NCBI GenBank assembly: GCA_002026005.1
Contig: MWOX01000124.1
Span: forward strand, 1 to 62,821
Direction of reading: 5' to 3'
From: Prochlorococcus sp. HOT208_60m_808M21
GTDB lineage: Bacteria > Cyanobacteriota > Cyanobacteriia > PCC-6307 > Cyanobiaceae
Length of the DNA: 62,821 nucleotides
Numbering within the stretch: the stretch's first letter is position 1; each line of letters starts with the position of its first letter. Positions 1 to 48,765 of the stretch are shown here, one piece after another. A program made the translations under genes and the position numbers. The notes beneath the pieces are model-generated. The model was not told where the DNA came from and did not search any database. It was given only the letters and a program-made list of their open reading frames with translations.

Positions 1-1001
1 TAATACTTCTTATACATTTTTATTTTTAATTTCTCTTCCCTTCCATTTTTGCTTCTTAATATGAGTCTAATTATATAATTCATGATTTTGGAAGGCATAA
101 AATAACCAATGAATTCATATGTAGATAAATTTTTACTTTTATGGGTTGAACTAATTAAATATAAGTCGGCTAATTCTAATGAAACTTTATTTAGATCATC
201 TATTATCTTTTCATTTTCACCTGATCTCGAGCTTAATCTTTTATTAGAACCGTATAGTACGTGGTTGTATAATCCTTTTTTGACTAAGCAAATATTATTA
301 GACTTTTTTAATACATAGCAATTGAATAAAATATCTTCTAACTGATTCATAGTCTCATCAAAAAATATATAATTACTTTTTATTAAACTTAATTTGATTA
401 ACCTGCCCCAGCAATGTTCAAATAAACAATATTCTCTAGTATGTTTGCAATAAACCTGAAGATAATCCTGAAGAAATGATTTTTTGGAAAAAGATTTATT
501 CTTTATGCCACATAAATTTGTTTTTTTTATAATTTTTTTATCTATTTTTCTTACTTGATTATGAAGGCTTACAACATAATCTGGAAAGGACTCTTTTTGG
601 GAAGTCTCAATTAATTCAGACAAACAAAAATTCTCAAGATAATCATCAGAATCCATAAAAAAAATATAATCACTTTTTGAATGGTATATTCCTAAATTTC
701 TAGCTTTGCTTGGACCTCCTGAAGATGAATTCAAGCGAATTTTCTTTATAGGTAAGGTTTCTTTTTTTTCAAAATCAGAGACTTTTTTAAAACTATCATC
801 TGTAGAACCATCATCTATATAAATAACTTCATTAAATTTGAAGTCTAATTTTTGATTAACTATTGAATTTAAAGCTCTATCAATTGTATTTGAGCAATTA
901 TGACCTGGAATAACAATTGATACTGAGTATTCTTGCTTCAAAAATATTGATATATATTTAATATTATTATATGCTAATGTAGGGAAAATTTTAATTTCCA
1001 T
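1..1001 (-). CDS. Glycosyltransferase family 2, C-terminal end cut off by window edge
   Basis: Reading the minus strand from an ATG at 1001 gives at least 333 codons without a stop, so the gene continues left of the window. The N-terminal third is a GT-A glycosyltransferase: VSIVIPGHN near residue 24, a DDGST nucleotide-binding motif near residue 60, and DSDD at 117-120, the metal-binding DXD-type motif. This predicts a cytoplasmic enzyme transferring a sugar from a nucleotide sugar to a lipid-linked or surface glycan acceptor. Donor and acceptor cannot be told. About 22 residues precede the first GT2 strand, longer than usual. The ATG overlaps the ATG of the divergent gene inside CCATGG at 998-1003, so one of the two starts is probably elsewhere. 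Confidence 0.85.
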   Translation of the reverse strand, partial: MEIKIFPTLAYNNIKYISIFLKQEYSVSIVIPGHNCSNTIDRALNSIVNQKLDFKFNEVIYIDDGSTDDSFKKVSDFEKKETLPIKKIRLNSSSGGPSKARNLGIYHSKSDYIFFMDSDDYLENFCLSELIETSQKESFPDYVVSLHNQVRKIDKKIIKKTNLCGIKNKSFSKKSFLQDYLQVYCKHTREYCLFEHCWGRLIKLSLIKSNYIFFDETMNQLEDILFNCYVLKKSNNICLVKKGLYNHVLYGSNKRLSSRSGENEKIIDDLNKVSLELADLYLISSTHKSKNLSTYEFIGYFMPSKIMNYIIRLILRSKNGREEKLKIKMYKKY

Positions 1002-2268
1002 GGAATATTTTGGGCACAACTTAGAAAATGTTATGTCTAATAATCCATTTGAAATTATGGATAAAGTAAAAAATGAAAAATTAAATGTTATTCTTTACGG
1101 AGCAGGTATACAATGTAGAACTTTTATTTCTTTACTAAGATTCAAAGGCGTTTTAGATGAACAGATAATTTTATTGGATTCTAATGAATCAAAAACTGGT
1201 AGAAAGTTTGAAAAGATAAAAATTTTAAATTCCAATAAAATTAATAAATTTGATCCATCTAAAAGTATCGTTTTTATAACTTGTTGTTTCCCAGCACAAA
1301 TCCTTGCCTCTGTAAAAAATGATTTTAATGTTTACAGTATTATTCCAATATATAACCAATTTAAATCATTCTTACCTGAGATAGAAATTAACAATGGTGA
1401 ATTAAAATACGAGAGAAATATTGGTGATATCACAAGGGAGTTTATTTTATATGACACTGAATTTAATAACTTATATTCCTCGATAGAAAATAAAAATTTA
1501 AGACTCAAATCTATTGATGCAGTTGTGACAGAGGGTTGCAGTCTCAAATGCAAAAATTGCTCAAATTTGATGCAGTACTATGAAAAACCTCAAATGGCTG
1601 ATTATGAGCTTTTGATAAGCTCTACGGATACTATTTTGAGTAATGTAGATTTTGTTTTTGAATGGAGAATACTTGGAGGTGAGCCCTTTATTTTTAGAAA
1701 TTTAGACAAATATCTTTTACATTTAAAAAAACATTCAAACTTTGGAAATATAATTATTTATACAAATGGAACAATATTGCCTAAACAATCATTAATAAAT
1801 GCAATTAAAGAAAGTAACTCGATTGTTGACATATCTAATTATGGTCCTCATTCGAGGAAACTTCATGAACTCACTAAGTGTCTTGAGGAAAATAATATTC
1901 CTTTTGCGTGTAAAGAACCTGAATGGACTGATTCTGGGAGGGTAACACCTACTCAAAATTTACCTCAAAATCAATTAGAGGAGAGATTTTTTAATTGCTG
2001 CACTAAAGATGTACTTACCCTTTTACATGGTTTTTTATATAGATGCCCATTCTCAGCAAATTTAATGAACCTTAGCGATCATTACCTTAATGAAAGTGAT
2101 AGGGTTTTTGTTAATAATTTTCCTGGCGTTGTAAGGGAAAAAATAAAATCTTTATATAGAGAAAAAGCATTTTTATCCGCCTGCGATAATTGTAATGGAA
2201 GAGACTATACAGTTCCATTGATACCAGTTGCGGAACAAACAAGGGAAATATTAAAATTACCAACCTAA
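1000..2268 (+). CDS. Radical SAM protein with N-terminal Rossmann-like domain and C-terminal cysteine region
   Basis: A 422-residue protein. Residues about 28-75 begin with VILYGAG and look like a small nucleotide-binding Rossmann-like module. The radical SAM core starts with C180-X3-C184-X2-C187, which should bind a [4Fe-4S] cluster and S-adenosylmethionine, followed by a GGEP motif. Further cysteines at 333, 334, 349, 395 and 398 suggest an auxiliary SPASM/twitch-type cluster. The reaction is unknown; relatives in surface-glycan clusters are poorly characterised. It is the first gene of a plus-strand cassette with a methyltransferase, phosphatase, second radical SAM protein, SDR and aldolase. 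The ATG at 1000 overlaps the divergent gene's ATG; the ATG at 1033 (MSNNPFEIMD) is an equally good start. Confidence 0.8.
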   Translation: MEYFGHNLENVMSNNPFEIMDKVKNEKLNVILYGAGIQCRTFISLLRFKGVLDEQIILLDSNESKTGRKFEKIKILNSNKINKFDPSKSIVFITCCFPAQILASVKNDFNVYSIIPIYNQFKSFLPEIEINNGELKYERNIGDITREFILYDTEFNNLYSSIENKNLRLKSIDAVVTEGCSLKCKNCSNLMQYYEKPQMADYELLISSTDTILSNVDFVFEWRILGGEPFIFRNLDKYLLHLKKHSNFGNIIIYTNGTILPKQSLINAIKESNSIVDISNYGPHSRKLHELTKCLEENNIPFACKEPEWTDSGRVTPTQNLPQNQLEERFFNCCTKDVLTLLHGFLYRCPFSANLMNLSDHYLNESDRVFVNNFPGVVREKIKSLYREKAFLSACDNCNGRDYTVPLIPVAEQTREILKLPT

Positions 2269-2306
2269 ATAATCTTTTTTAAGTTGATTGAAGGATTCTT
2301 TTAAAT

Positions 2307-3446
2307 ATGGCTTGTAGAATTTGTAACTCGAATAATCTATCTAAAATTATAACCTTATCAAAAGTTCCTAAAGCTGCTCAATATTTTGTAGATTCTCCAA
2401 ATGATAAAACTATTGATGAAATTGATTTAATTATATTGCAATGTAATAATTGCGGGCATGTTCAAACTGGCAATAAACCAGTTGATTATTATAGAGATGT
2501 TATAACAGCATCTAGTCTTTCACCATTTTTAGCTAAAGAAAGAGTACTTTACCTAAAAAAAATAATCAGAGAGAATAAAATTGAAGACCCAAGAATTATA
2601 GAAATTGGATCTCATGTTGGGAATATGGTGAAATTCATATCTGATAATATTAAATGTAAGGTTATGGGGATTGAGAATTGTGATGAATCGGTAAATAAAT
2701 CAAAAAAATTAGGAATCATCATAAAAAAAGGTTATTTATGTGAAGATGTGGAAGGAATAAAAAATGAAAAATTTAATATTGTCGTTTGTTTCAATTTTTT
2801 AGAGCATATGCCTAATCCAAGTCAGTTTTTAAATAATTTAAAATTATTTTTGGAAGATGAATCTTATGTTTATATGACAGTGCCTAGTTTAAATTTTATT
2901 GAATCTACTTCTTGTATCCATGAATTTATTTCAGATCATTTATCGTATTTTACAGAAAATTCTTTATCTAATTTATTTAAAATTAATGGATATCAAGTTT
3001 TAGATTGTAAATCTATTCATAATAAAAACGATTTAGAAATTTATGCTAGATTTTCAAGGCCTAAGAAGCTAAATTTAGATATTGCAAAATATAATTTATT
3101 AAAAGAAAAATTAAATAGTATGATCGAAATATTAAATAACCAAAATAGTAATATAGTAATTTGGGGAGCTGGTCATAGATCTTTAACTTTAATTTCTCAA
3201 ATAAACTATAAAAATATTAATTATATAGTTGATTCTGCTATTTTTAAACAAGAAAAATATGCTCCAGTAAGTCGTATAGAAATTGTAAGCCCAGATATAC
3301 TTTATTCTCTTAAAAATGTTACTCTTGTTTTGAATTTACCTGGTATTTACGGTGAGGAAGTAATTTCCAATCTCGATGAAAAAATTAAAATAAATATTAC
3401 TAATTTATATAATATTAAGGAAAATAATCTTATTAAAATTAATTAA
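2307..3446 (+). CDS. Class I SAM-dependent methyltransferase, sugar C-methyltransferase type
   Basis: A 379-residue protein with the three-part build of the TylC3/NovU group of nucleotide-sugar C-methyltransferases. There is an N-terminal zinc site (C3, C6, C46, C49), a SAM-binding core with motif I at about 97-106 (IIEIGSHVGN) and post-motif FNFLEHMPNP, and a C-terminal Rossmann-like lobe starting with IVIWGAGH near 283. The conserved HE...DHLSYF stretch, typical of the active site in this group, is present. Family knowledge predicts methylation of a carbon next to a keto group of a nucleotide-linked deoxysugar. The 4-keto product of RfbG, encoded nearby, is a plausible substrate; that link is inference. 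It starts 38 bp after the radical SAM gene and 12 bp before the HAD gene. Confidence 0.8.
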   Translation: MACRICNSNNLSKIITLSKVPKAAQYFVDSPNDKTIDEIDLIILQCNNCGHVQTGNKPVDYYRDVITASSLSPFLAKERVLYLKKIIRENKIEDPRIIEIGSHVGNMVKFISDNIKCKVMGIENCDESVNKSKKLGIIIKKGYLCEDVEGIKNEKFNIVVCFNFLEHMPNPSQFLNNLKLFLEDESYVYMTVPSLNFIESTSCIHEFISDHLSYFTENSLSNLFKINGYQVLDCKSIHNKNDLEIYARFSRPKKLNLDIAKYNLLKEKLNSMIEILNNQNSNIVIWGAGHRSLTLISQINYKNINYIVDSAIFKQEKYAPVSRIEIVSPDILYSLKNVTLVLNLPGIYGEEVISNLDEKIKINITNLYNIKENNLIKIN

Positions 3447-3458
3447 CCATATATTTTA

Positions 3459-4109
3459 ATGAATCTTCTATTTGATCTGGATGGGACCTTGATAAATAGT
3501 AAAAATGGAATTTACAATGCTTATAAATTATCTCTGGAAAATTATATAGAACCTATAGGGGAAAAAGAATTTGAGTATTATATAGGACCTACATTCTCAA
3601 ATATCTTGACAAATATTCATCCCGACTTAGATATATCGGTATCTAAAACTATTATTAGTAATTTTAGAAGATTATATGATTGTATTTATTATAAGGAATT
3701 TATCATTTATGATGGAATGGTTGATCTAATACAAAAAGTATCTACTTTTAGCCAATGTTTTATTGTCACTAATAAACCGACTAAACCATCAATTGAAATA
3801 CTTAAAAAATTAAAATTAAATTATTACTTTAAAGAAATAGTTGGGGTCAATTATTTTTCTAATATTGGATTAAGAAAAAGGGATAATATTTCTAAATTAA
3901 TTGCTAATAATAACCTTTCTAAGATTCAGACATTTTACATAGGTGATACGAAGGCAGATTTAGATGCGGCTAAACAAAATAATATTAATTTTATAGCCTT
4001 TAAAGAAGGATATTATAAATGGAAGAAATATGAATTAGTAAATACTTTTTTTTATTATAAAAAACCAAGTGATCTCTACTTGAAATTGTCGACATTAATT
4101 AATACTTAA
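3459..4109 (+). CDS. HAD-superfamily phosphatase, Gph-like
   Basis: A 216-residue soluble protein with all four HAD motifs: FDLDGT at residues 5-10 (nucleophile and acid aspartates), VTNKP (motif II), RKRDN with the motif III lysine, and GDTKADLDAA (motif IV acidic residues). Length and cap arrangement resemble phosphoglycolate phosphatase and related small sugar-phosphate phosphatases. The position between a methyltransferase and a radical SAM enzyme suggests it dephosphorylates an intermediate of the same pathway rather than 2-phosphoglycolate, but the substrate cannot be read from the sequence. The gap to the previous gene is 12 bp, consistent with co-transcription. Confidence 0.8.
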   Translation: MNLLFDLDGTLINSKNGIYNAYKLSLENYIEPIGEKEFEYYIGPTFSNILTNIHPDLDISVSKTIISNFRRLYDCIYYKEFIIYDGMVDLIQKVSTFSQCFIVTNKPTKPSIEILKKLKLNYYFKEIVGVNYFSNIGLRKRDNISKLIANNNLSKIQTFYIGDTKADLDAAKQNNINFIAFKEGYYKWKKYELVNTFFYYKKPSDLYLKLSTLINT

Positions 4110-4223
4110 ATATTTTAAATAACGTTAAAAAGCTTTTTCTTCATATCTAGATAACTTTGTTTTTTCATTTTAAAGAAATATAAATGTGCTAGTATGTGTT
4201 AAATTTTTCACCTCTTTTTTCTT

Positions 4224-5282
4224 ATGGTAACCTCCTCAGGCAGTAGTAAGAAATCTAAAATAAAACCCAGGATTTATCATCAGAAAAAAGTAGCGCTTCA
4301 AGATGCATTACCACTTGATACTCCTTTTTCTGTACATATAGATGTTTGTAGTTTATGTAATTTTAAATGTACTTTTTGTTTTCAACACGATAAGGCTGGG
4401 ATGAAAGAATCAGGTGTTAAATGGGGAATGATGGAAGTAGATACATTTAAAAAATGTGTAGATGACCTAAAAAGATTTCCTAAAAAAATAAAAAAAATAA
4501 AAATTGGGAATCATGGTGAGCCCACCATGCATCCTAATTTGCCAGAATTAGTAAAATATGCAAGAGATTCTGAAGTTGCTGATATAGTTGAGATTTTTAC
4601 AAATGGTTCAAGACTTGAGCCAAAGTTAAACCAAAAGCTTGTTGATGCTGGACTGCAGAGAATGAATATTTCAGTGGAGGGATTAACAGCTGAGAGTTAT
4701 AAAAAGGTTGCTGATTATAAAATTGATTATGAAAAATTTATAGAAAATATCCGAGACCTCTACAATAGAAAAGATGATTCCTTTTCTCTTTACATAAAAG
4801 TTGTTGATCACGCAGTAGTTAAATCTGAACCAGGTAGACCTACGATAGATTTAAGTGAGGAAGAAAAGAAATATTTCTATAAAACTTTTGGTGAAATTTC
4901 AGATGAAATGTCTGTTGAAAATATTGTTCCTCAATGGGCTGAAACAGATCAGAATGAATTAACTGACGTAGGAATGTATGGTCAGGAAATAAAATCTCTA
5001 AAGAAAGTTTGTCCATTCCCCTTTATGTATCTACATATTAATAGTGATGGAACAGTAGCTGGATGTACACTTGATTGGGCAAGAAAAGTTTTGGTAGGAG
5101 ATAGAGCTCAAAATGATCTTTATGAAATATGGAATGGTCCTGGCATGAAAGAATTAAGGTTAGGCATGTTGAGAGGTGAAAGAAATAAAATTCCTATGTG
5201 CGATACTTGTAATGCTCCTAATGTTTGTGTTATCGATAATTTAGATCCATATATGGGAGATCTTATAGAAAAGTTTAGTTAA
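4224..5282 (+). CDS. Radical SAM/SPASM domain protein
   Basis: A 352-residue protein. C45-X3-C49-X2-C52 (in the stretch CNFKCTFCFQ) is the radical SAM cluster motif, followed by GNHGEPTMHPN, the GGEP-equivalent. The C-terminal part has a SPASM-like cysteine set (CPFPFMYLHINSDGTVAGC and CDTCNAPNVC), implying auxiliary Fe-S clusters. SPASM enzymes modify peptides, sugars or cofactors by radical chemistry; the substrate here is unknown. It is only distantly similar in layout to the radical SAM gene at 1000 and is not a duplicate of it. A 114-bp gap precedes it, enough for its own promoter, and the SDR gene follows after 4 bp. Confidence 0.85.
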   Translation: MVTSSGSSKKSKIKPRIYHQKKVALQDALPLDTPFSVHIDVCSLCNFKCTFCFQHDKAGMKESGVKWGMMEVDTFKKCVDDLKRFPKKIKKIKIGNHGEPTMHPNLPELVKYARDSEVADIVEIFTNGSRLEPKLNQKLVDAGLQRMNISVEGLTAESYKKVADYKIDYEKFIENIRDLYNRKDDSFSLYIKVVDHAVVKSEPGRPTIDLSEEEKKYFYKTFGEISDEMSVENIVPQWAETDQNELTDVGMYGQEIKSLKKVCPFPFMYLHINSDGTVAGCTLDWARKVLVGDRAQNDLYEIWNGPGMKELRLGMLRGERNKIPMCDTCNAPNVCVIDNLDPYMGDLIEKFS

Positions 5283-5286
5283 TTAA

Positions 5287-6159
5287 ATGTCAGATAAATT
5301 ATTAATACTTGGATCAAGAGGTTTTATAGGTAAAAATGTCTTTAATTATTTTAATGAAAATAGTAACTATAAAACTATTGGTCTAACAAGAGATAACATT
5401 GACTTTTCTAATTCAGAAGAACTTATAAAGAAAGTAAATGAAATTATGCCCTCCGTGGTTATACATACAGCTGTATCTTTAGACAATTTTGAAAATAATA
5501 TAAAAATGTATCTTGCTTTAGAAAATATTGCAAAGGATGTTAACAAAATCCTATTAATTGGCTCTGGTGCAGAATATATCCCAAGTAGATATAAACCAAA
5601 AATGAAAGAGGATTATTTTCCTAAAAATTCTGTTTCTATAAAAGATACATATACTTTATCTAAATATACAATTTCTAGACTTCATCAAAATAATAATTTC
5701 AAAAATATTTTTAACTTAAGAGTCTTTGGTATTTACGGACCATTTGAAGATTATAAAAGAAGATTGATTTCGAATAATATTGTAAGAAATTTAAATAAGT
5801 TGCCTTTGCAATATAATAGAAATGTTGCTTTTGATTATCTGTATATAAATGACTTCAATTCAGCAATTGATAGATTCATTAAATTAAGTAATCCTAAACA
5901 CAATACTTATAATTTATGTAATGGTAAGGCTTTTAAGTTTAAAGAAATAATGAATACTATTGCTGATGTCACTGGTTTCCCTAAACATAATATTTTGTTA
6001 AATAATTCAGAACCAAGTCCCTATGAATATTCGGGAGATTCATCTTTAATTGAAAATGAAATTGGTAAAGTAGAACAAACTACTCTTTATGAGGCAATAT
6101 ACGAACTTAATTCATGGTATTCCTCGCAAAACATATCAAACTTTAAGCTTGAGGATTAG
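5287..6159 (+). CDS. NAD(P)-dependent sugar epimerase/dehydratase (SDR)
   Basis: A 290-residue extended-SDR protein. The N-terminal dinucleotide-binding motif is GSRGFIG (GxxGxxG), and the active-site pair is YTLSK (YxxxK). A serine-containing GSGAEY precedes it in the position of the catalytic Ser/Thr. Family members oxidise or reduce, epimerise or dehydrate nucleotide sugars using NAD(P)H. It is somewhat shorter than typical GalE- or RmlD-like enzymes. Placed 4 bp after a radical SAM gene and 3 bp before an aldolase gene, it very probably acts in the same unknown pathway. It might provide a CDP-sugar 4-reductase function for the nearby rfbF/G/H set, but nothing in the sequence proves this. 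Confidence 0.8.
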   Translation: MSDKLLILGSRGFIGKNVFNYFNENSNYKTIGLTRDNIDFSNSEELIKKVNEIMPSVVIHTAVSLDNFENNIKMYLALENIAKDVNKILLIGSGAEYIPSRYKPKMKEDYFPKNSVSIKDTYTLSKYTISRLHQNNNFKNIFNLRVFGIYGPFEDYKRRLISNNIVRNLNKLPLQYNRNVAFDYLYINDFNSAIDRFIKLSNPKHNTYNLCNGKAFKFKEIMNTIADVTGFPKHNILLNNSEPSPYEYSGDSSLIENEIGKVEQTTLYEAIYELNSWYSSQNISNFKLED

Positions 6160-6162
6160 AAA

Positions 6163-6957
6163 TTGGAGAATCTTTTTGACCAAATGGTCGATATCTTAAA
6201 AGTTAATAAAAAGCTTGGACAAATCGCCGTTAAAGCTGAATTTGAATCTGAAGGTACAAGAACTGAAGAGCTTATTAGGCTAAAAGAAATTTCTAATGCT
6301 GCAAAACTACCTATGGTTGTCAAAATTGGTGGATGTGAGGCTATTAGGGATTTATTAGAATGTAAAGTATATAGAATTGAAAATCTAGTTGCTCCAATGG
6401 TAGAGAGTAGCTATGCAGCTCAAAAATTTGTTAATTCACTTGAAAGGGTATTTGGGGATGAATGTTTTAGACCAAAGACTTATATTAATGTAGAGACCAG
6501 CTTAAGTTTTAATAATCTAGATTCAATATCGGATGCAATTAAGGGAAGACTCGATGGAATTGTATTCGGCAGGGTGGATTATGTTGGATCTCTTGATATG
6601 TCTAGATCTCATGTAAATGATGAGTCACTTTTAAAAGATGCCATAGATATCGCATCAAAATGCTTTGATCAAAATCTAGAATTCGTAATTGGGGGAGGTA
6701 TTTCAATTGATGCAGTGCCTTTTCTTAAAAAAGTTAAGAAAATTAGTCTCCAAAGATTTGAAACAAGAAAATGCGTTTTTAACTCAAATATTCTTGAAAC
6801 TTCATTTGTTGATTCTGCATTGAGGAATGCAGTTCTTTTTGAATTACTTTGGCTTAAAAGTAAACAAAGTTATAACAGCAAAATAACTGCTGAAGATGAT
6901 ATTAGAATCGATATGTTAGAAAAAAGGCATATTTATAACATGAATTCTTGTTCTTGA
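6163..6957 (+). CDS. HpcH/HpaI or citrate-lyase type aldolase
   Basis: A 264-residue TIM-barrel-like protein of the aldolase/citrate lyase group. Visible landmarks are VKIGG, the metal-site region VETSLSF, GRVDYVGS (acidic metal ligand after a strand), and the late glycine-rich FVIGGG. Family enzymes make or break C-C bonds with pyruvate, oxaloacetate or acyl-CoA partners using a divalent metal. The start is TTG at 6163, supported by GAGG at 6151-6154 eight bases upstream; an ATG seven codons in is the alternative. An aldolase in a surface-sugar cassette is unusual and suggests a branched or chain-extended sugar, or a non-sugar substituent. It is the last gene of the plus-strand cassette. Confidence 0.75.
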   Translation: MENLFDQMVDILKVNKKLGQIAVKAEFESEGTRTEELIRLKEISNAAKLPMVVKIGGCEAIRDLLECKVYRIENLVAPMVESSYAAQKFVNSLERVFGDECFRPKTYINVETSLSFNNLDSISDAIKGRLDGIVFGRVDYVGSLDMSRSHVNDESLLKDAIDIASKCFDQNLEFVIGGGISIDAVPFLKKVKKISLQRFETRKCVFNSNILETSFVDSALRNAVLFELLWLKSKQSYNSKITAEDDIRIDMLEKRHIYNMNSCS

Positions 6958-7172: not shown

Positions 7173-8264
7173 TTATTCATTCAAATATTCGTTCAAGTTT
7201 TCTAATGAACAATCTAAAGGTGAAATGTTATCAGAATGTACTTTCTTATACCATTTAACAGTCTTTTCAATTGTTTTTCCGAAATCCCATTTAGGAACCC
7301 AACCTAAATCTTTTTTTGATTTTTCAATTGTCAAATGGAGTGATTCAGCTTCGTGAGGTTTATTTAAATTTTTTTCAATGTAGTAATCACCTTCCCAATG
7401 CTTTAAACATTCTTCAACTAATTCTTTAACAGTTCTATTTGATTCTAACAACGGACCAAAATTGAAAGAAGTTGTAAGATTACTTCTTTTTTCTTTTAAA
7501 TTTTCTGCAAGTATTAAATAGCCTGAAAGCGGTTCTAAAACATGTTGCCAAGGTCTTGTGGAAAAAGGGTTTCTAATTTTTATCTTTTCATTATTTTTCA
7601 ATGACTTAATTACATCAGGAATTATTCTATTGTCTGCTGAATCTCCTCCTCCGATCACATTACCTGCTCTTGCACTTGCTATAGATACTAATACATCATT
7701 TGTTTTGATTTGATTGAAAAAACTTGATCTCCAAGAAGAAATCGCTATTTCACAAGCTGCTTTACTACTACTGTAGGGATCATGACCACCTAATTCATCA
7801 TTTTCTCTATATCCATAAACCCATTCTTTATTTTTATAAACTTTATCAGTAGTTATAAAAATCCCTGAACATTCTCTCTTAATTGATTTTATTGCATCTA
7901 AAACGTTTATAGTTCCCATAAGATTAGTTTCCCATGTTTGAAGTGGATCTTTATATGATTTGACTACTAAAGGTTGAGCCGCAAGGTGAAAAACTATATC
8001 AGGTTTGATTTCTTTAAAATGATTTTTCAGAGAACTTCTATCTCTAATGTCACAAACTATATGATTTAAATCTTTTTTAATTTTTAATTGGTCAAATAAA
8101 TTATGAGATCCAATAGGATCTAAGCTTATGCCATTTACTTTTGAATTCATCTTTAAAAGCCATAATGCTAACCATGAACCTTTAAACCCAGTATGGCCTG
8201 TAATTAAAACTTTTTTCCCATCCCAAAAATTTTGATCTGGCTTGTTAGGGTGAGGAATATTCAT
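7173..8264 (-). CDS. rfbG: CDP-glucose 4,6-dehydratase
   Basis: A 363-residue extended SDR that matches the RfbG family well. The signature GHTGFKGSWLALWL at residues 23-36 holds the NAD-binding glycine motif and is typical of CDP-glucose dehydratases. The catalytic pair is Y164-X3-K168 (YSSSK), with TTDK upstream. It converts CDP-D-glucose to CDP-4-keto-6-deoxy-D-glucose, the branch point to 3,6-dideoxyhexoses and branched sugars. It lies 3 bp downstream of rfbF, the preceding step, so the two form an operon. Full length for the family. Confidence 0.93.
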   Translation of the reverse strand: MNIPHPNKPDQNFWDGKKVLITGHTGFKGSWLALWLLKMNSKVNGISLDPIGSHNLFDQLKIKKDLNHIVCDIRDRSSLKNHFKEIKPDIVFHLAAQPLVVKSYKDPLQTWETNLMGTINVLDAIKSIKRECSGIFITTDKVYKNKEWVYGYRENDELGGHDPYSSSKAACEIAISSWRSSFFNQIKTNDVLVSIASARAGNVIGGGDSADNRIIPDVIKSLKNNEKIKIRNPFSTRPWQHVLEPLSGYLILAENLKEKRSNLTTSFNFGPLLESNRTVKELVEECLKHWEGDYYIEKNLNKPHEAESLHLTIEKSKKDLGWVPKWDFGKTIEKTVKWYKKVHSDNISPLDCSLENLNEYLNE

Positions 8265-8267
8265 TTT

Positions 8268-9038
8268 TTATTTCCAGCATTTCCATGGAGGGTTTTTTGA
8301 ATTCCATAATTCCTCTAAAAAATTTTTATCTTTAAGCATATCCATAGGTTGCCAGAAACCACTATGATAATAAGCTGATAATTGATCATTTTCTGCAAGA
8401 GTTTTAAGAGGTTTATCTTCCCAAGTAGATTGATCTCCATCAATCAAATCAATTACTGATGGCTCTAATACAAAAAATCCTCCGTTTATCATATTTCCAT
8501 CTCCTTTAGGTTTCTCTTGAAAAGATAATACTTTACCTCTTTCAAACTTAATTGAGCCAAATCTTCCTGGAGGTTTAACTGCAGTTAAAGTAGCTTGACT
8601 CCCTTTATCATGATGAAATTTGATAAGTTCCTTTATATTAATGTCAGCGACCCCATCACCATAAGTAAAACAAAAGGTCTCATTATTAATATATTGCGCA
8701 ACCCTTTTTAATCTACCACCTGTCATTGTATTTTCACCTGTATCTACTAATGTTATTTTCCAAGGCTCAGACTTTTTGGTGTGAATTTCCATACTATTAT
8801 CACTCATGTCAAAAGTTACATCACTGTTATGAAGAAAATAGTTAGCAAAATATTCTTTAATTACATAACCTTTATATCCACAACAAATAATAAAGTTATT
8901 AATTCCAAAGCTGCTATAGATTTTCATTATATGCCAAATAATAGGCTTTCCTCCTATCTCAATCATCGGCTTTGGCTTCAAGTGAGACTCTTCGCTGATG
9001 CGTGTTCCAGATCCCCCAGCTAAAATTACGACCTGCAT
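8268..9038 (-). CDS. rfbF: Glucose-1-phosphate cytidylyltransferase
   Basis: A 256-residue nucleotidyltransferase with the N-terminal pyrophosphorylase loop ILAGGSGTRISEES and KPKPMIEIGGKPIIWHIM, a form specific to RfbF rather than RfbA or GalU. It makes CDP-glucose from CTP and glucose 1-phosphate, the first step of CDP-linked deoxysugar synthesis. Length matches the family (about 257 residues). It is the first gene of a two-gene minus-strand operon with rfbG, and the 445-bp AT-rich gap upstream must hold its promoter. Confidence 0.94.
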   Translation of the reverse strand: MQVVILAGGSGTRISEESHLKPKPMIEIGGKPIIWHIMKIYSSFGINNFIICCGYKGYVIKEYFANYFLHNSDVTFDMSDNSMEIHTKKSEPWKITLVDTGENTMTGGRLKRVAQYINNETFCFTYGDGVADINIKELIKFHHDKGSQATLTAVKPPGRFGSIKFERGKVLSFQEKPKGDGNMINGGFFVLEPSVIDLIDGDQSTWEDKPLKTLAENDQLSAYYHSGFWQPMDMLKDKNFLEELWNSKNPPWKCWK

Positions 9039-10564: not shown

Positions 10565-11353
10565 ATGATTAAAAAATTTTTTTTATTAGTGCAAAAATCT
10601 TTTAAGTACCTTGCCAGATTATTAATATCATTTGGTTTCAGGCAAAATTTAATAAATAGTCTAATAAATTTACCTAGATATTTTAGGGATAAAAAATCGT
10701 GGCTTAAGCAGGGAGGCAAAATAAATAAAGAGTTTTTAATGCTTAATGATTTTTTTTCTGAATCAGGAGTATGCTCTGGAGAATATTTTCATCAAGATCT
10801 TCTTGTCGCAAAATTAATACATCAAAACAAACCTAAGAAACATATCGATGTAGGTTCAAGAATTGATGGTTTTGTCGCCCATGTAGCAAGTTTTAGAGAG
10901 ATTGAAGTGATTGATATAAGAGCTCTTAGTATGAAAAACCATGAAAATATTAAATTTCTGAAGTTTGATATTACAGAGAAATTTCAATTCCCGAAAACAG
11001 ATTCTTTATCTTGTTTGCATGCTATTGAACATTTTGGTTTAGGAAGATATGGCGATCGAATCAATACTTTAGGGTACCTTTTGGCTTTAGATAATCTTAT
11101 TTCAATGCTTGAAAAAGACGGTGTTTTTTATATAAGCTTTCCTATAGGGAGAGCAAATGAGGTGCATTTTAATAGTCAAAGAGTTTTTAATCCTAATTAT
11201 TTTTTGAATTTAAAAGTAGTAAAAAAAAATCTAAATCTTATAAGGTTTGATTATGTAAATCAAAAAGGAGATTTAAATTGTCAAAAGAATATCTTAGATT
11301 TTTTAGATAATGAGAAATATGGATGTGGAATCTTTACATTCAAGAAAGTTTGA
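10565..11353 (+). CDS. DUF268 family protein, methyltransferase-like fold
   Basis: A 262-residue protein. The conserved DUF268 stretches are visible: a DVGSRIDGFVAHVASF motif resembling SAM-binding motif I of class I methyltransferases, followed by DIRAL, and LHAIEHFGLGRYGD, the family's most conserved segment. DUF268 proteins are found in surface-polysaccharide and glycosylation clusters; no enzymatic activity is established to my knowledge. The N-terminal 60 residues are basic and hydrophobic and may lie on the membrane. It stands alone on the plus strand, between genes transcribed the other way, so it has its own promoter, probably in 10417-10564. Confidence 0.75.
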   Translation: MIKKFFLLVQKSFKYLARLLISFGFRQNLINSLINLPRYFRDKKSWLKQGGKINKEFLMLNDFFSESGVCSGEYFHQDLLVAKLIHQNKPKKHIDVGSRIDGFVAHVASFREIEVIDIRALSMKNHENIKFLKFDITEKFQFPKTDSLSCLHAIEHFGLGRYGDRINTLGYLLALDNLISMLEKDGVFYISFPIGRANEVHFNSQRVFNPNYFLNLKVVKKNLNLIRFDYVNQKGDLNCQKNILDFLDNEKYGCGIFTFKKV

Positions 11354-11452
11354 ATTTTTTAAGGATTCATCAAATTCTATTTTTTTTAAAACCCCCTATT
11401 TTGATTAGATTTGGGTTAGTACTTTGAAAGAGAATAGATAAAAAATTTTGAG

Positions 11453-13237
11453 TTATTTTCTTAAAAGAATCTTATCTTCTATAACTAACGCATCCATCTT
11501 AGTTCTTGCAAAACAATCAAAAGCTTCATCTATTGTGCTGACAATTGGTTCATTTTCATTAAAAGATGTATTTAAAATCATTGGAACTTTTGTTAGTTCA
11601 AAAAAAGTTTTAATCAATCTGTAATACCTTCCATTCTCTTCTTTCGTAACAGTTTGTAGTCTTCCTGTTCCATCAACATGACATACTGCAGGAATAAGCT
11701 TTCTTTTGTCAATTTTTATTGGGTAGACCTTCATCATAAAGGGAACATTATTATCAGATTGATAACTCATTTCGAACCAATCTTTTACTTCCTCTTTAAG
11801 TACAGAAGGAGCAAATGGTCTGAAAGATTCTCGTTTTTTTATTTTTTTATTAAGTATTTCCTGCATATTACTGTTCCTAGGATCCGATATTATTGATCTA
11901 TGACCTAACGCCCTTGGCCCCCATTCCATTCTTCCCTGAAACCAACCAATAACATTACCTTTTGTAAGCAATTCAGAAATAAAAAACAGTAAATCCTTTT
12001 CAGTGGGAATTAATTTATCTCCTATTGAAAATATTTCGATATTAAAATTTTTATTATTTTTCAATTCTTTTGAAACTCTTGTATTTATAAACTCTTCTAC
12101 TTGATTATTTTTATAAGAATGACCCAAATAAGATGACCTTAAAGGGGAGCATCTTTCTTTACTAATATTATGCCAAAGCTCAAGCGCACTTCCAATAGCT
12201 CCTCCAGCATCGCCCGCCGCAGGTTGCACAAATATATTTTTAAATGGTGTCCTTTGACTTATCTTCCCATTTGCTACTGAATTAGCACCACATCCGCCTG
12301 CAATACAGAGATTTTCACTTCCATGTAATTTATAAGTGTGATTCAATAAATTGAAAAAAGACTCTTCATACATAAATTGAGCCGAACTAGCTATGTCTTT
12401 ATGTTTTTGAGTTAGTTGCTCATTCTTTTTTCTTGGCATACCAAAGAGTTTAAAAAAATGATTACTATAGTGATTCCCTAAAATAGGAGCACCTTTATCC
12501 CATTTGATTGGTATAAATTCTTTTGTATGGAGAAAATAATTCAAATTTAATATAAATTTCCCATTAGATAATAATTTCACTAATTCTCTCATTTCATTCA
12601 TGTATTTTGGCTTTCCATAGGGTGCTAGACCCATTACTTTATATTCATCTCCATAGTTCGGAAAACCTAAAAATTGCGTAATAGCTGTGTAAAAAATACC
12701 CAATGAATGAGGGAAAAATATTTTATCATTGATTTTAAGACTTTGGCCCTCTCCTAACCCCCAGGCTGTACTAGCAAAGTCGCCAAATCCATCAACTGAA
12801 ACAACCGTGGATTTATCAAAAGGTGATAAATAATATGCTGAAGCCAAATGAGATAAATGATGATCAATAAAGACAAACTTTGCTTTTATTTGAGAATCTG
12901 GAAAATTTTTATGAAAGGTATTTTTTATAGAAGATCTTTTTTGTTTATTTTTAAATTTCTCAATTAAAAATTTAGAGTTTATTTTGCTAGATAATGTATA
13001 AAAAAGTTTTCTATATAAGTGCTTTTGGGGATCTGAATTTATAGTGATGTAGTTAATTTTATCTATTGAAATCCCAGCATCTCTCATGCACCATTTTATC
13101 GACTCTAGAGGAAATCCAGTGCAATGTTTTATCCTTCTTATTCTTTCTTCTTCGCAAGCATTTAATACTTTTCCATCTCTAATCAAAGATGCTGATGCAT
13201 CAGCATGATATGCATTTATTCCCAATATATAAGTCAT
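11453..13237 (-). CDS. Carbamoyltransferase, NodU/CmcH/TobZ family
   Basis: A 594-residue protein with the standard two-domain build. The N-terminal Kae1-like ASKHA domain begins YILGINAYHADASASLI and includes EEERIRRIKH, HHLSHLASAY (metal-binding histidines) and VDGFGD. The C-terminal domain carries GWFQGRMEWGPRALGHRS. The family makes carbamoyl-AMP from carbamoyl phosphate and ATP and transfers the carbamoyl group to a hydroxyl, usually of a sugar. It probably carbamoylates a residue of the surface glycan or its nucleotide-sugar precursor. Length and motifs look intact. It follows the GT4 gene by 8 bp, so the two are co-transcribed. Confidence 0.92.
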   Translation of the reverse strand: MTYILGINAYHADASASLIRDGKVLNACEEERIRRIKHCTGFPLESIKWCMRDAGISIDKINYITINSDPQKHLYRKLFYTLSSKINSKFLIEKFKNKQKRSSIKNTFHKNFPDSQIKAKFVFIDHHLSHLASAYYLSPFDKSTVVSVDGFGDFASTAWGLGEGQSLKINDKIFFPHSLGIFYTAITQFLGFPNYGDEYKVMGLAPYGKPKYMNEMRELVKLLSNGKFILNLNYFLHTKEFIPIKWDKGAPILGNHYSNHFFKLFGMPRKKNEQLTQKHKDIASSAQFMYEESFFNLLNHTYKLHGSENLCIAGGCGANSVANGKISQRTPFKNIFVQPAAGDAGGAIGSALELWHNISKERCSPLRSSYLGHSYKNNQVEEFINTRVSKELKNNKNFNIEIFSIGDKLIPTEKDLLFFISELLTKGNVIGWFQGRMEWGPRALGHRSIISDPRNSNMQEILNKKIKKRESFRPFAPSVLKEEVKDWFEMSYQSDNNVPFMMKVYPIKIDKRKLIPAVCHVDGTGRLQTVTKEENGRYYRLIKTFFELTKVPMILNTSFNENEPIVSTIDEAFDCFARTKMDALVIEDKILLRK

Positions 13238-13245
13238 TTAGAAAA

Positions 13246-14328
13246 TTAGAAAATAAAATCAGGTTTCTCAGAATTGCCTAAAACCCAATTGTATAATTTG
13301 TTGATTTTACTAGAAACCATTGGTAAAGAAAAGTTATTTGAAACATATTTATAGTTATTTTCACCTATTTCATCTAAATCTTTTTGATCAAATTTGTTTA
13401 AATCTGATAATGCTTTTAGGATACTTTGAATATTAGGCTCTAAATTTAATGAACTATTTTGTTTGAATATTTCAGATAGATTACATTGCCGGCTTAATAA
13501 GCATGGTAATTTAAAAGTCATCGCCTCTACTGCAGCCATTGGCAATCCCTCTGAAAATGATGGAAGAATAAAAGCATCAGAATTATAGAAAACCACATCT
13601 TTTGTTATTCCAGATATTTTTCCGTATACTTTTACAAACTTAATCTTCTCTTCTTTTATTCTTTTCAGGAGATATTTTTTATCTCCAAATCCAACAAAAA
13701 CTAATCGCCAATTTGTAGATTTATTCAAATCAGAAAAGATTTTCCAAGCACTTAATAACTCCTCTATTCCTTTTTTCTTGTGAAATCTTCCTAAAAATAA
13801 TAATATTCTTTCTGATTTATTAAATGTTCTCCTCCAAATAGGTTTTAGGTTTTTTATTTTTTTTAAATTAGGAAAATTAACGGAGTTTGGGATTACCGCA
13901 ACTTTTAGCTCAGGAAATAATGATTTTATTTCCATTGCTTCGTTTTCACACAAAGCATGAATACATTTTGCATTATAAAAAGCTTTTTTTTCCCAACAAT
14001 TTAAAGCAAGTTTCTTTTTGAATTTTGATTGTGATAAAGCCCACTTATCGACCATTCCATGCGGAGTAATGATAAATGGTTTCAAACTTTTAGAAAAAAA
14101 TGCTGCTAATCTGTTTTGACTTCTCCATAAGCCATGAATATGTGTTAAGTCGTGATTACTTTTTTTTATTTTTTTTAATAATGTAAAATCCCTTAAAATT
14201 TTTGGTGTTGTATTATTACAGAACCATTTATTTGAAATATTATAGTTATTTTTCAATAATTGTTTAATAGAAATACTGATTCCTCCATCTTGTATATTTT
14301 TAGAATAGGAAAGATGAAGTATTTTCAT
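13246..14328 (-). CDS. Glycosyltransferase family 4
   Basis: A 360-residue GT-B glycosyltransferase. The N-terminal domain has the acceptor-side glycine loop NIQDGGISISI, and HGMVDKWALSQSKFKK marks the inter-domain region. The C-terminal donor domain has RILLFLGRFHKKKGIEELLSAW and the EX7E-type motif in FSEGLPMAAVEAM. It is expected to be a retaining transferase on the inner face of the membrane; the sugar donor is unknown. It is the first gene of a minus-strand pair with the carbamoyltransferase gene and diverges from rfbH. Confidence 0.85.
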   Translation of the reverse strand: MKILHLSYSKNIQDGGISISIKQLLKNNYNISNKWFCNNTTPKILRDFTLLKKIKKSNHDLTHIHGLWRSQNRLAAFFSKSLKPFIITPHGMVDKWALSQSKFKKKLALNCWEKKAFYNAKCIHALCENEAMEIKSLFPELKVAVIPNSVNFPNLKKIKNLKPIWRRTFNKSERILLFLGRFHKKKGIEELLSAWKIFSDLNKSTNWRLVFVGFGDKKYLLKRIKEEKIKFVKVYGKISGITKDVVFYNSDAFILPSFSEGLPMAAVEAMTFKLPCLLSRQCNLSEIFKQNSSLNLEPNIQSILKALSDLNKFDQKDLDEIGENNYKYVSNNFSLPMVSSKINKLYNWVLGNSEKPDFIF

Positions 14329-14520
14329 AATTTTTGTTATTTAAAAATAATTAAAGTTTTTCAATTTAAAGAACCATTAAAAATATTCTTTTCAATTTAA
14401 TTTTATATTATTACGAGTAGAAAAAAATTTGGTAGAAAAACGATAAAATTTCTCTAAGAATTTTATTTTTAAATCAAATAGATATTTTTTCTCAAATTTG
14501 ATCTTACAAAAATTATTTAA

Positions 14521-14550
14521 TTGAATATTTATCCTTTGATTAGTTATTAT
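14521..14550 (+). promoter_or_regulatory. Possible promoter of rfbH
   Basis: TTGAAT at 14521-14526 and TATTAT at 14545-14550 are separated by 18 bp and resemble -35 and -10 boxes. They end 21 bp before the rfbH ATG, in the 243-bp gap between divergent genes. Such boxes are common by chance in AT-rich DNA. Confidence 0.3.
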
Positions 14551-14571
14551 AAAATCAATTGTTAAATTTAC

Positions 14572-16017
14572 ATGAAAGATGCTTCATTAGAAAAAGAAAA
14601 AAATATTTTTATAGATAAAGAATCAATTTTGGCTACTGTTAGTAAATATTTCAAGCAAAATCATAGTAAATATGCAAGAAAGGATTTTGATGATCCTTCA
14701 GATTTTATTCCAGGTGTAACTACAGTTCCATATGCTGGAAGAGTTTTTGATGAAGAGGAAATGTTGCAATCAACTTCTTCGCTTTTAGATTTTTGGCTTA
14801 CTTTAGGAGAATATGGAAATTCTTTTGAAAAAGAATTTGCTAAATTCTTAGGGGTTAAAAATTGTATTCTCACAAATTCAGGTTCATCAGCAAATTTGCT
14901 AGCTATATCAGCTCTAACAAGTCATAAATTAGGAGATAGGAGATTAAAAAAAGGGGACGAAGTTATCACTGCGGCGGCAGGATTTCCCACAACAGTCGCT
15001 CCGATAATACAAAATGGATTAATACCAGTTTTCGCAGATAACGATCCAGTAACTTTAAATATAAAAATTGAGGATTTATCATCTTTAATATCTGAGAAAA
15101 CTAAGGCAATCTTTATCGCTCATACATTGGGAAATCCTTTTGATTTATATTCGATAAAAAGTTTTTGTAATGAAAATAATTTATGGTTGATTGAAGACAA
15201 CTGTGATGCGCTTGGATCTACTTACAATGATTTCGCAACTGGGACATTTGGCGATTTATCTACTCAAAGTTTCTATCCTCCCCATCATTTAACTTTGGGA
15301 GAGGGAGGTATGATAAATATTCCTAGAACTAGAAAATTAAAAACTATTGTTGAAAGTTTTAGAGACTGGGGGAGAGATTGCTGGTGCCCAAGTGGAAAAG
15401 ATAATACATGTGAAAAAAGATATGGATTTCAATTAGGTCAATTACCAAAAGGCTATGATCATAAATATACATATTCTCATTGGGGTTATAATATAAAGCC
15501 TCTTGATTTGCAAGCTGCAATAGGTTTGGCACAACTTAAAAAGATAAATACTTTTATTAATGATAGAAAAAGAAACTGGACATATTTAAGAAGTGGACTT
15601 GATAAATTAAGTACAGAACTATATTTTTCTTTACCAACTCATGCAACCTCATGGGAGCCTGAAAAAGGATTTAGTTGGGATACTTCTGGGAATAAAACTG
15701 AATCCTCTTGGTTTGGATTTATGATAGGTATTAAACCAGAATCAAAAATAAATAAGCAGCATTTCGCAAACTTTCTAGATACACATAAAATAAATAATAG
15801 AATGCTATTTGGAGGGAATTTGCTTAGACAGCCAGTAGCTTTACAACAAGAAAAAGATTATCCTGGTTCTATGAGGAGAAAAGAGAATAATGATTATTCT
15901 GGTTCAGATCAAATTATGAATTCATCATTATTTATTGGAACATTTCCAGGTTTGAGAAGAGTTCATTTAGATTATATAATTAATACTATAGAAAATTATG
16001 TATCTGAATATTCCTAG
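14572..16017 (+). CDS. rfbH: CDP-6-deoxy-L-threo-D-glycero-4-hexulose 3-dehydrase (E1)
   Basis: A 481-residue protein of the aspartate-aminotransferase fold, RfbH/AscC group. The usual PLP-anchoring lysine is replaced by histidine in FYPPHHLTLGEGG (H238/H239), the hallmark of this PMP-dependent dehydrase. C270-X-C272-X7-C280 matches the spacing of the [2Fe-2S] ligands in the Yersinia E1 enzyme. It catalyses C3 deoxygenation of CDP-4-keto-6-deoxyglucose, and so acts directly after RfbG. It needs an E3 ferredoxin-type reductase (RfbI/AscD), and none is visible in the window. It is isolated on the plus strand, 5.5 kb from rfbF/rfbG. Confidence 0.93.
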   Translation: MKDASLEKEKNIFIDKESILATVSKYFKQNHSKYARKDFDDPSDFIPGVTTVPYAGRVFDEEEMLQSTSSLLDFWLTLGEYGNSFEKEFAKFLGVKNCILTNSGSSANLLAISALTSHKLGDRRLKKGDEVITAAAGFPTTVAPIIQNGLIPVFADNDPVTLNIKIEDLSSLISEKTKAIFIAHTLGNPFDLYSIKSFCNENNLWLIEDNCDALGSTYNDFATGTFGDLSTQSFYPPHHLTLGEGGMINIPRTRKLKTIVESFRDWGRDCWCPSGKDNTCEKRYGFQLGQLPKGYDHKYTYSHWGYNIKPLDLQAAIGLAQLKKINTFINDRKRNWTYLRSGLDKLSTELYFSLPTHATSWEPEKGFSWDTSGNKTESSWFGFMIGIKPESKINKQHFANFLDTHKINNRMLFGGNLLRQPVALQQEKDYPGSMRRKENNDYSGSDQIMNSSLFIGTFPGLRRVHLDYIINTIENYVSEYS

Positions 16018-16041
16018 ATGAATAAAAAAATTTTATTAAAT

Positions 16042-16968
16042 TTACTTTTCTAAAAAATATTTAATATTTATCTTTTTTAAAAGCTTATGTTTACCATAAT
16101 ATTTTTTGTATTTTGCAAAAATGAAAAACTTTGAAATAGCATATCCTATCCTCCAAGTTATGATGTTTTTATAAATAAAAAATTTATATAAATCCTTAAG
16201 CAAAAAAAGAAATTTATTTTCACTATTAAAAAACTTAATTTTAACTTCAGAACCAGAAATTACTGTTTTATTATTTTTCCATAAATTAATATATGCCTCT
16301 TGGGTAATATCAATTCTATTTGTTTGTGCAGTTTTTCTTGTAGCTACTAATATTTGTAATTCTTTTGATTTGAAACCTGTCAAATTTATTCTCTTGCCTT
16401 GCTTAGGCTTTAAGACTTTATAAATATTTCTCCAATTATGAATTTCAACTAGATAAATTTCAGTTAATTCAAAGCCATTTTTTAGATTATAAATTTCGAA
16501 GAATAGTTCAGGAGAAAACTGCCAAAAACCATGTCCGTTTTGATTGTTAGAAGGAAGTACATGAATTATTCTCCCTCCTATTTTAGATAGATTTATAAGA
16601 TTAAGTATTGCTTGAGGAATATTATATAAATGTTCTAAGGTGCCTATATCAAAAATCGTATTATAAGATTCTTTGATATCTAAATTAGGGTTAAGTGGAT
16701 TATTAAGATTTTGTTGATAGGTAGAATTTTCATAAATAGAAAAATCTATAGAATCGACTTTTGTAGCTTTAAATTCTTTTTTTAAAAGATTTTCACAATA
16801 CTCATCATTTTTATATTCATTAATTTTGTTGATATCAAATTGCATAATATCTCTAAAATTTAATAAATTTGGATTTAATGATTGCCGCCCTAAGGTTAGT
16901 GTATTTCCAAAATTATGCTTATTATATAAATACTTCATAAATAAAAGCGAATCATTTGTTAATCCCAT
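16042..16968 (-). CDS. SAM-dependent methyltransferase-like protein
   Basis: A 308-residue protein. Its middle contains YNTIFDIGTLEHLYNIPQA, resembling the motif around post-I/IV of class I methyltransferases, and later GGRIIHVLPSNNQNGHG, typical of the strand after the acceptor site. The classical glycine-rich SAM motif I is weak, with only TLGRQ near the start, so activity is uncertain. It is the last gene of the long minus-strand run that begins at 31501; the next upstream gene is 5 bp away. It may methylate a glycan residue or be a glycan-associated protein of unknown function. It faces rfbH tail to tail with a 24-bp gap. Confidence 0.55.
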   Translation of the reverse strand: MGLTNDSLLFMKYLYNKHNFGNTLTLGRQSLNPNLLNFRDIMQFDINKINEYKNDEYCENLLKKEFKATKVDSIDFSIYENSTYQQNLNNPLNPNLDIKESYNTIFDIGTLEHLYNIPQAILNLINLSKIGGRIIHVLPSNNQNGHGFWQFSPELFFEIYNLKNGFELTEIYLVEIHNWRNIYKVLKPKQGKRINLTGFKSKELQILVATRKTAQTNRIDITQEAYINLWKNNKTVISGSEVKIKFFNSENKFLFLLKDLYKFFIYKNIITWRIGYAISKFFIFAKYKKYYGKHKLLKKINIKYFLEK

Positions 16969-16973
16969 GAAAC

Positions 16974-48135: not shown

Positions 48136-48765
48136 GTGATTAATAATAATTTCTTTTTTAAAGATTACGCTAACCAACTATCAAAGGCACTAGATTTAGT
48201 AAGTCAAGATCAAATTGATAATTTCTTTAATGTTTTTGATTCTTATTTTGGTAGCAAAGCAAATATTTATCTCTTAGGTAATGGGGGAAGTCAGGCAAAC
48301 GCACATCATATTTCAGGTGATTTTATTAAAACATTTTCCTTAGCAGGGCTAAAGCTGAAAATCTCTTGCCTAGCAGATAATGTTTGCCATTTAACGGCAG
48401 CAGCCAATGATCTCTCTTATGATGAAGCTTACTCGATTTTAATTGATAACCTAATAGATAAGGATGATCTATTAGTTTACTTATCAGGAAGTGGTAATTC
48501 TCTAAATTTAGTAAAGTGCGCTAGAAAGGCAAAATTAAGATTTATTAAACAGGCTGCTATTACAGGTTTTAATGGAGGAGCCTTGAATGACATAGTAGAC
48601 TATCCAATTCACATTAAGTTTAATGATATGGAAATCTGTGAGGACATACAATTATCTATTTTTCATTACATAAAGCAAAGATTGATCTTGAAATATTCAA
48701 ATAATTTTGATGATTTAGAACTACCTAAATACCAGAAAAGGACATTAGAGGATCTAATATCGTGA
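48136..48765 (+). CDS. gmhA: Sedoheptulose-7-phosphate isomerase
   Basis: A 209-residue SIS-domain protein. NIYLLGNGGSQANAHHISGDFIKTF carries the sugar-phosphate binding loop and histidines of GmhA, and DDLLVYLSGSGNS is the second SIS signature. GmhA converts sedoheptulose 7-phosphate to D-glycero-D-manno-heptose 7-phosphate. The start is GTG at 48136. It overlaps the kinase gene by 4 bp (GTGA), and two further steps of the GDP-heptose pathway follow, which makes the assignment strong. Confidence 0.9.
   Translation: MINNNFFFKDYANQLSKALDLVSQDQIDNFFNVFDSYFGSKANIYLLGNGGSQANAHHISGDFIKTFSLAGLKLKISCLADNVCHLTAAANDLSYDEAYSILIDNLIDKDDLLVYLSGSGNSLNLVKCARKAKLRFIKQAAITGFNGGALNDIVDYPIHIKFNDMEICEDIQLSIFHYIKQRLILKYSNNFDDLELPKYQKRTLEDLIS

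Follow-up and report, generated by a model that had tools for sequence, protein, structure and literature searches.

A Prochlorococcus gene cassette that probably contributes to a rare branched, C-methylated surface sugar

What is the product of six closely spaced genes, two of which encode different radical S-adenosylmethionine (SAM) enzymes, that are located at positions 1000-6957 of a contig from Prochlorococcus sp. HOT208_60m_808M21? The window analysed here is that whole contig (MWOX01000124.1; 62,821 bases), drawn from a genome assembly of 1.49 Mb in 379 contigs that is 81% complete. An initial annotation had put the cassette forward as a candidate for an undescribed pathway to a branched, chain-extended or otherwise unusual sugar or substituent. 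We find that the gene set is real, conserved and probably working, and that it is more than a chance assembly because the same genes recur in distant bacteria. These genes, in Prochlorococcus and in its distant counterparts, probably build a rare branched, C-methylated surface-coat sugar by radical chemistry. With moderate confidence, we read the cassette as the portion that supplies the donor and tailors the sugar in a cytidine diphosphate (CDP)-activated branched 3,6-dideoxyhexose pathway for surface polysaccharide.

The cassette and its companion genes

The genes of the cassette and the CDP-sugar genes of the window are as follows.

1000..2268, plus strand: radical SAM enzyme 1 (rSAM1), with an N-terminal Rossmann-like domain, a radical SAM domain (PF04055, 30.8 bits) and a C-terminal cysteine region
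2307..3446, plus strand: methyltransferase (MT), a nucleoside diphosphate (NDP)-ketosugar C-methyltransferase of the TylC3/NovU/TcaB9 type (PF08421, PF13489, PF08484)
3459..4109, plus strand: HAD phosphatase, phosphoglycolate-phosphatase-like (PF13419, HAD_2, 97.8 bits)
4224..5282, plus strand: radical SAM enzyme 2 (rSAM2), with radical SAM and SPASM domains (PF04055; PF13186, 46.7 bits)
5287..6159, plus strand: short-chain dehydrogenase/reductase (SDR) of the NDP-sugar epimerase/reductase family, a probable ketoreductase (PF01370, 66.3 bits)
6163..6957, plus strand: HpcH/HpaI-like aldolase (ALD), with a TTG start (PF03328, 27.3 bits)
7173..8264, minus strand: RfbG, CDP-glucose 4,6-dehydratase (TIGR02622, 491 bits, cut-off 278)
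8268..9038, minus strand: RfbF, glucose-1-phosphate cytidylyltransferase (TIGR02623, 468 bits, cut-off 300)
14572..16017, plus strand: RfbH, CDP-4-keto-6-deoxyglucose 3-dehydrase (NF011936, 623 bits, cut-off 423)

The six cassette genes are intact open reading frames separated by gaps of 38, 12, 114, 4 and 3 nucleotides, and all six proteins are full length relative to their homologues. The initial coordinates are exact, and Pfam agrees with all six names, in the case of the aldolase only just. The genes evolve under purifying selection, with dN/dS below about 0.45 wherever dS, which is near saturation, can be estimated against two other Prochlorococcus clusters. A scan for promoters and terminators was uninformative in this AT-rich window, where promoter-like sites are fewer than in shuffled sequences.

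The cassette is not self-contained. The rfbG-rfbF pair is located directly downstream in convergent orientation, and together with these genes and RfbH the cassette makes up most of a conserved CDP-sugar module. Since RfbF, RfbG and RfbH are all present as strong family matches, the window is predicted to encode a route to CDP-4-keto-3,6-dideoxyglucose. In RfbH, a histidine replaces the pyridoxal phosphate lysine and the CxC...C cysteines are present. A 3-dehydrase-like protein in one of the clusters compared below (L057:3356-4558) apparently also has histidine for lysine and lacks the Fe-S cysteines (ColD-like), and 3-deoxygenation in that cluster may use a different enzyme.

Recurrence of the module in distant bacteria

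A genome scan with a single aldolase query gave no matches, and one with a three-sequence aldolase alignment gave 464 relatives, of which 80 loci were kept. In these loci the aldolase mostly adjoins rfbF-rfbG-rfbH and an acetolactate-synthase-like thiamine diphosphate (ThDP) enzyme. It has two main sets of additional partners, namely an SDR together with a dehydroquinate (DHQ)-synthase-like protein (33 of the 34 loci with the latter carry that SDR), or rSAM2, SDR, a further radical SAM protein (rSAM3), MT and the HAD phosphatase. The module that combines this second set with rfbF-rfbG-rfbH, the ThDP enzyme and the aldolase is also found in Rhodocyclaceae/Azonexus, Jezberella, a metagenome-assembled genome of Methylocystaceae and two other Prochlorococcus. 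Gene order and strand differ between clusters.

The full comparison comprises 82 loci, 81 with the aldolase. MT is present in 10 of the 11 rSAM2 loci versus 1 of the 71 without rSAM2 (p = 6e-11, a value that ignores relatedness). The corresponding counts are 10 of 11 versus 0 of 71 for the SDR, 9 of 11 versus 0 of 71 for rSAM3, and 10 of 11 versus 8 of 71 for the HAD phosphatase. In the aldolase tree, six of the 11 rSAM2 loci fall into a single tight group of Rhodocyclaceae type. On the same tree, the rSAM2 label requires at least two changes and the aldolases of Prochlorococcus branch separately and deeply, and therefore the module is not just a single inherited copy.

Searches with the rSAM2 profile only were made in 386 cyanobacterial genomes, where the sole ortholog is that of the window's genome and the other matches are paralogues at 31-37%, and in two proteobacterial orders (399 and 297 genomes), where there are five further orthologs. 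All five lie beside SDR, MT, the ThDP enzyme and rSAM3. Three have the aldolase within the stretch fetched, L163 (19.9 kb) does not, and L120 has a NeuB-family synthase instead. No rSAM2 ortholog was found outside the module in these cyanobacterial and proteobacterial genome sets. The concern raised at the outset, that the genes might occur independently among unrelated neighbours, thus does not hold for rSAM2, SDR and MT; it does hold for rSAM1.

There are three invariant cysteines in the CX3CX2C motif of rSAM1 (C180/C184/C187) and three more in its C-terminal part (C349/C395/C398), as judged from 4 homologues. The protein is 50% identical to its homologue in L057. The window, L057, L019 and L119 are the only clusters where it was found close to the module, and a complete Prochlorococcus genome that lacks the module has a 37% homologue. 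This enzyme is accessory to the module and would be an optional extra for tailoring.

These results redraw the boundaries of the original proposal. The proteins MT, HAD, rSAM2, SDR and ALD do recur together in distant genomes, and the gene surroundings all point to a branched or chain-extended sugar. However, the set had been cut too short, as rfbG-rfbF and RfbH belong to it, its first gene is accessory, and the pathway also takes in the CDP-glucose genes and, as a rule, a ThDP carboligase.

Two further ideas were rejected. A phage gene set is not indicated, as phage records and viral contigs contain no aldolase match and their rSAM2 matches have just 20-31% identity. The DHQ-synthase-like partner and rSAM2 are not mutually exclusive, as L120 carries both. 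In L120 (positions 11222-17392), the NeuB-family synthase, an FGGY kinase, the DHQ-synthase-like protein and an SDR adjoin the ThDP enzyme in the absence of the aldolase, possibly as an alternative supply of 2-oxo acid.

A sister module (L005, L011, L026, L048, L070, L084 and others) consists of rfbF-rfbG-rfbH, SDR1, a DHQ-synthase-like protein (weak TIGR04425 match), a ThDP enzyme, an aldolase and SDR2. It could be read as a route to the caryophyllose branch, in which an aldol step to a heptulosonate phosphate would be followed by phosphate loss, reduction, carboligation and reduction. In Mycobacterium ahvazicum, the order glycosyltransferase-ThDP enzyme-aldolase would fit MMAR_2333-2331. Mutants of these MMAR genes all accumulate lipooligosaccharide without terminal caryophyllose (PMC5706390).

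rSAM2 and the methyltransferase

The most conserved gene of the set is rSAM2, with 51-54% identity to its proteobacterial orthologs. The cysteines of its CX3CX2C motif (C45, C49, C52) and of its SPASM domain (C263, C281, C326, C329) are invariant in 16 sequences. Its predicted structure best matches BtrN, the radical SAM dehydrogenase of butirosin biosynthesis (Z 23.8, root-mean-square deviation (rmsd) 2.8, 240 residues, 22% identity), followed by DesII, the thymidine diphosphate (TDP)-sugar radical SAM lyase of desosamine biosynthesis (Z 21.2, rmsd 3.4, 285 residues). These are the closest solved folds, and the likeness extends to carbohydrate-type substrates and a radical SAM plus auxiliary cluster region. 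In contrast to both, to which it is about 16-22% identical, rSAM2 has the full SPASM cysteine set and is tied to CDP-sugar genes rather than to aminocyclitol or TDP-sugar genes.

All three domains of MT (the Zn-binding N-domain, the SAM domain and the C-domain) score above the Pfam cut-offs, and its best PDB relatives by profile are the NDP-ketosugar 3-C-methyltransferases MtmC (4rv9) and TcaB9. Residue H211 is invariant in 8 sequences and aligns with the EH of TcaB9 and MtmC ([E/D]H motif); we take it to be the catalytic base. Thus, MT shares its three-domain architecture and conserved active-site histidine motif with TcaB9, MtmC, TylC3 and NovU, whereas its context, beside a radical SAM enzyme among CDP-3,6-dideoxyhexose genes, is different.

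Because the rSAM2 model matches BtrN and DesII, and because the enzymes to which the adjacent MT is related methylate a position beside a ketone, rSAM2 is a candidate ketone maker that would oxidise an unactivated alcohol in the manner of BtrN. It is also possible, though we doubt it, that rSAM2 is a DesII-like radical lyase or dehydratase that removes a hydroxyl, in which case the substrate of MT would be either the ketone thus formed or the one that the ThDP enzyme leaves in the branch. The DesII reaction is that of a radical lyase on a nucleotide sugar, a substrate that would suit this role, and DesII is the second-best fold match. However, BtrN has the better score and the lower rmsd, and it shares the SPASM-like C-terminal part with rSAM2 by sequence; the fold alone cannot decide between the two.

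Paralogues of rSAM2 at 35-39% (L121, L122, L123) are found with rfbF/rfbG and RmlC-like epimerases and without the aldolase. This wider family probably comprises other CDP-sugar radical SAM enzymes. In addition, a B12-binding radical SAM protein (HpnJ/AprD4-like), a third radical enzyme, is located beside the module in many relatives (L007:15179-16951, L014, L015, L162, L163, L164) and not in the window.

The aldolase and the ThDP carboligase

The 4-hydroxy-2-oxo acids are products of HpcH/HpaI-type aldolases, and HpaI itself has a pyruvate-binding arginine and a catalytic histidine. The barrel model of ALD matches HpaI (Z 19.1, rmsd 2.5 over 191 residues), in a tie with pyruvate kinase, and no PDB sequence is significantly similar to it. 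Residues E111 and D139 are invariant in 34 sequences and stand at the positions expected for metal binding, where they may be the metal ligands. The barrel fold and this Glu-Asp pair are the features shared with the class II pyruvate aldolases HpcH/HpaI and CitE. The difference is that ALD forms its own subfamily, with 32% identity to a CitE-like Ilyobacter protein. An Ilyobacter aldolase (33%) was set aside as an outgroup rather than a module relative, as it sits in an aconitase/2-hydroxyacid dehydrogenase operon.

The ThDP enzyme that adjoins the aldolase in relatives best matches 8rph and 5ahk, which we take to be the YerE-like enzymes JanthE and PpYerE. With the module's ThDP profile, YerE-like enzymes score above 690 bits and housekeeping acetolactate synthases about 285-334. 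The dedicated enzyme is full length in 10 of 13 aldolase-bearing genomes and present as a piece at a contig end in one more (11 of 13 in all). Only the housekeeping type is found in the window's genome and in the single-cell genome of L021.

The acceptor of both YerE and ErwE is CDP-4-keto-3,6-dideoxyglucose, onto which ErwE, a member of the YerE-like class, transfers 4-hydroxy-2-oxo acids and not pyruvate (PMC12247030). The resemblance to branched CDP-3,6-dideoxyhexose pathways of this type (yersiniose, erwiniose, caryophyllose; PMC12247030) is threefold: RfbF-RfbG-RfbH of the window are predicted to make the acceptor, a YerE-like carboligase adjoins the aldolase in the cassette's relatives, and the need of ErwE for a hydroxylated 2-oxo acid donor fits the aldolase. 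The differences are the added radical SAM/SPASM enzyme or enzymes and C-methyltransferase, and the lack of the ThDP gene in the window's genome. As no YerE-like carboligase was found in the window or its 81%-complete genome, we do not count the cassette among the full members of this pathway type.

A proposed pathway and its competitors

In the pathway that we favour, RfbF, RfbG and RfbH would provide CDP-4-keto-3,6-dideoxyglucose. The aldolase would condense a C3 unit, for example pyruvate, with an aldehyde that is probably phosphorylated. The HAD phosphatase, which has a DxDGT motif (FDLDGTL), would then strip the phosphate to leave a hydroxylated 2-oxo acid. This role for the two enzymes is suggested by the proximity of the aldolase to the ThDP enzyme, the acid requirement of ErwE (PMC12247030), the position of the HAD gene, which adjoins the aldolase in most related clusters, and L120, where the aldolase is absent and another C-C synthase that forms 2-oxo acids, of the NeuB family, adjoins the ThDP enzyme. 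By homology, the YerE/ErwE-like enzyme of the relatives would decarboxylate the 2-oxo acid and attach the remaining acyl unit at C4 of the CDP-ketosugar. Subsequently, rSAM2 would oxidise an unactivated alcohol to a ketone, MT would place a C-methyl group next to it, and the SDR would reduce the ketone last. The expected product is a CDP-activated 4-C-branched, C-methylated 3,6-dideoxy sugar, built like yersiniose, erwiniose or caryophyllose.

Several observations weigh against this pathway. A dedicated YerE-like ThDP gene was not found in the window or in the 81%-complete genome, in which the sole match is the housekeeping IlvB, and rSAM3, present in nearly all relatives, was not found here either. 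The PF03328 match of ALD is narrow (27.3 bits versus a cut-off of 25), none of its residues can be mapped confidently to the catalytic arginine and histidine of HpaI, and the reaction may have shifted, because ALD belongs to a long-branched clade of Prochlorococcus aldolases. The chemistry of ALD is the weakest link, as the modelled fold fits HpaI and pyruvate kinase barrels equally. Likewise, the predicted fold likeness of rSAM2 to BtrN does not itself show a function, and the order of the steps and their substrates are ones that we infer.

The missing carboligase also admits another explanation, which we consider unlikely. The gene may have been lost and the sugar may be a simpler one, with MT methylating CDP-4-keto-(3,)6-dideoxyglucose directly, the SDR reducing the product, rSAM2 altering one hydroxyl, and the aldolase acting on a small acid that decorates the sugar. 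Direct C-methylation of such a CDP-ketosugar is the route to vinelose-type sugars. This explanation is consistent with the absence of a dedicated ThDP gene both here and from the L021 genome, which has an aldolase of the same clade, and with the rSAM2 paralogues, whose CDP clusters have MT- and RmlC-like genes but no aldolase. However, the two closest clusters (L006, L057) retain the ThDP gene and the aldolase is maintained by purifying selection. Because the fragmented genome is just 81% complete and the contig ends 1 kb ahead of the cassette, an assembly gap is indistinguishable from a true loss; a tblastn search of the window gave no remnant of the gene.

An improbable variant without the ThDP enzyme is that the aldolase itself extends the CDP-ketosugar and that a radical SAM enzyme of the BtrN/DesII kind makes a remote carbon accessible to C-methylation, in the sequence radical oxidation, methylation and reduction. 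If true, the product would be a class of higher-carbon sugar without a described counterpart in a marine picocyanobacterium. Finally, it is very improbable that unrelated tailoring genes were gathered by shuffling within a variable surface-glycan island, since rSAM2, SDR, MT and HAD strongly co-occur across two phyla and in the independent rSAM2-only search, even if rSAM1 is found without the other genes, gene order and strand vary, and Prochlorococcus islands are variable.

Implications

An in silico count puts the number of YerE-like clusters above 200, and the sugar is unknown for the vast majority (PMC12247030). The present analysis ties a sub-module of radical SAM enzyme, C-methyltransferase and SDR to one branch of these clusters and proposes a role for the aldolase and phosphatase that neighbour YerE-like enzymes. 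It also indicates cultured hosts, Azonexus fungiphilus and Jezberella montanilacus, from which the sugar could be isolated. The description of the pathway as new applies to part of it: the radical SAM and C-methyl branch was not found described in the open-access literature searched, whereas the part made up of the aldolase and the CDP-sugar genes conforms to the YerE/ErwE class (PMC12247030). In the same literature, no paper was found on bradyrhizose biosynthesis, on vinelose with CDP, or on radical SAM enzymes with CDP-glucose in O-antigen. If the favoured pathway is correct, a nucleotide sugar would undergo radical oxidation and then C-methylation, a useful sequence of reactions, and the variable surface islands of Prochlorococcus would gain an unusual sugar.

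Other observations

In the Novosphingobium humi megaplasmid (L003), rfbF-rfbG-aldolase is located directly upstream of exopolysaccharide export genes, and the stretch fetched contains no ThDP enzyme. In the window, a NodU-like carbamoyltransferase gene (11453-13237) adjoins the CDP-sugar genes and scores 137.9 bits versus a cut-off of 1000. Further along (48136-52916), there are GmhA-like, HddA-like and fused nucleotidyltransferase-phosphatase (HddC/GmhB-like) genes, all below the family cut-offs, that probably constitute an NDP-heptose pathway.

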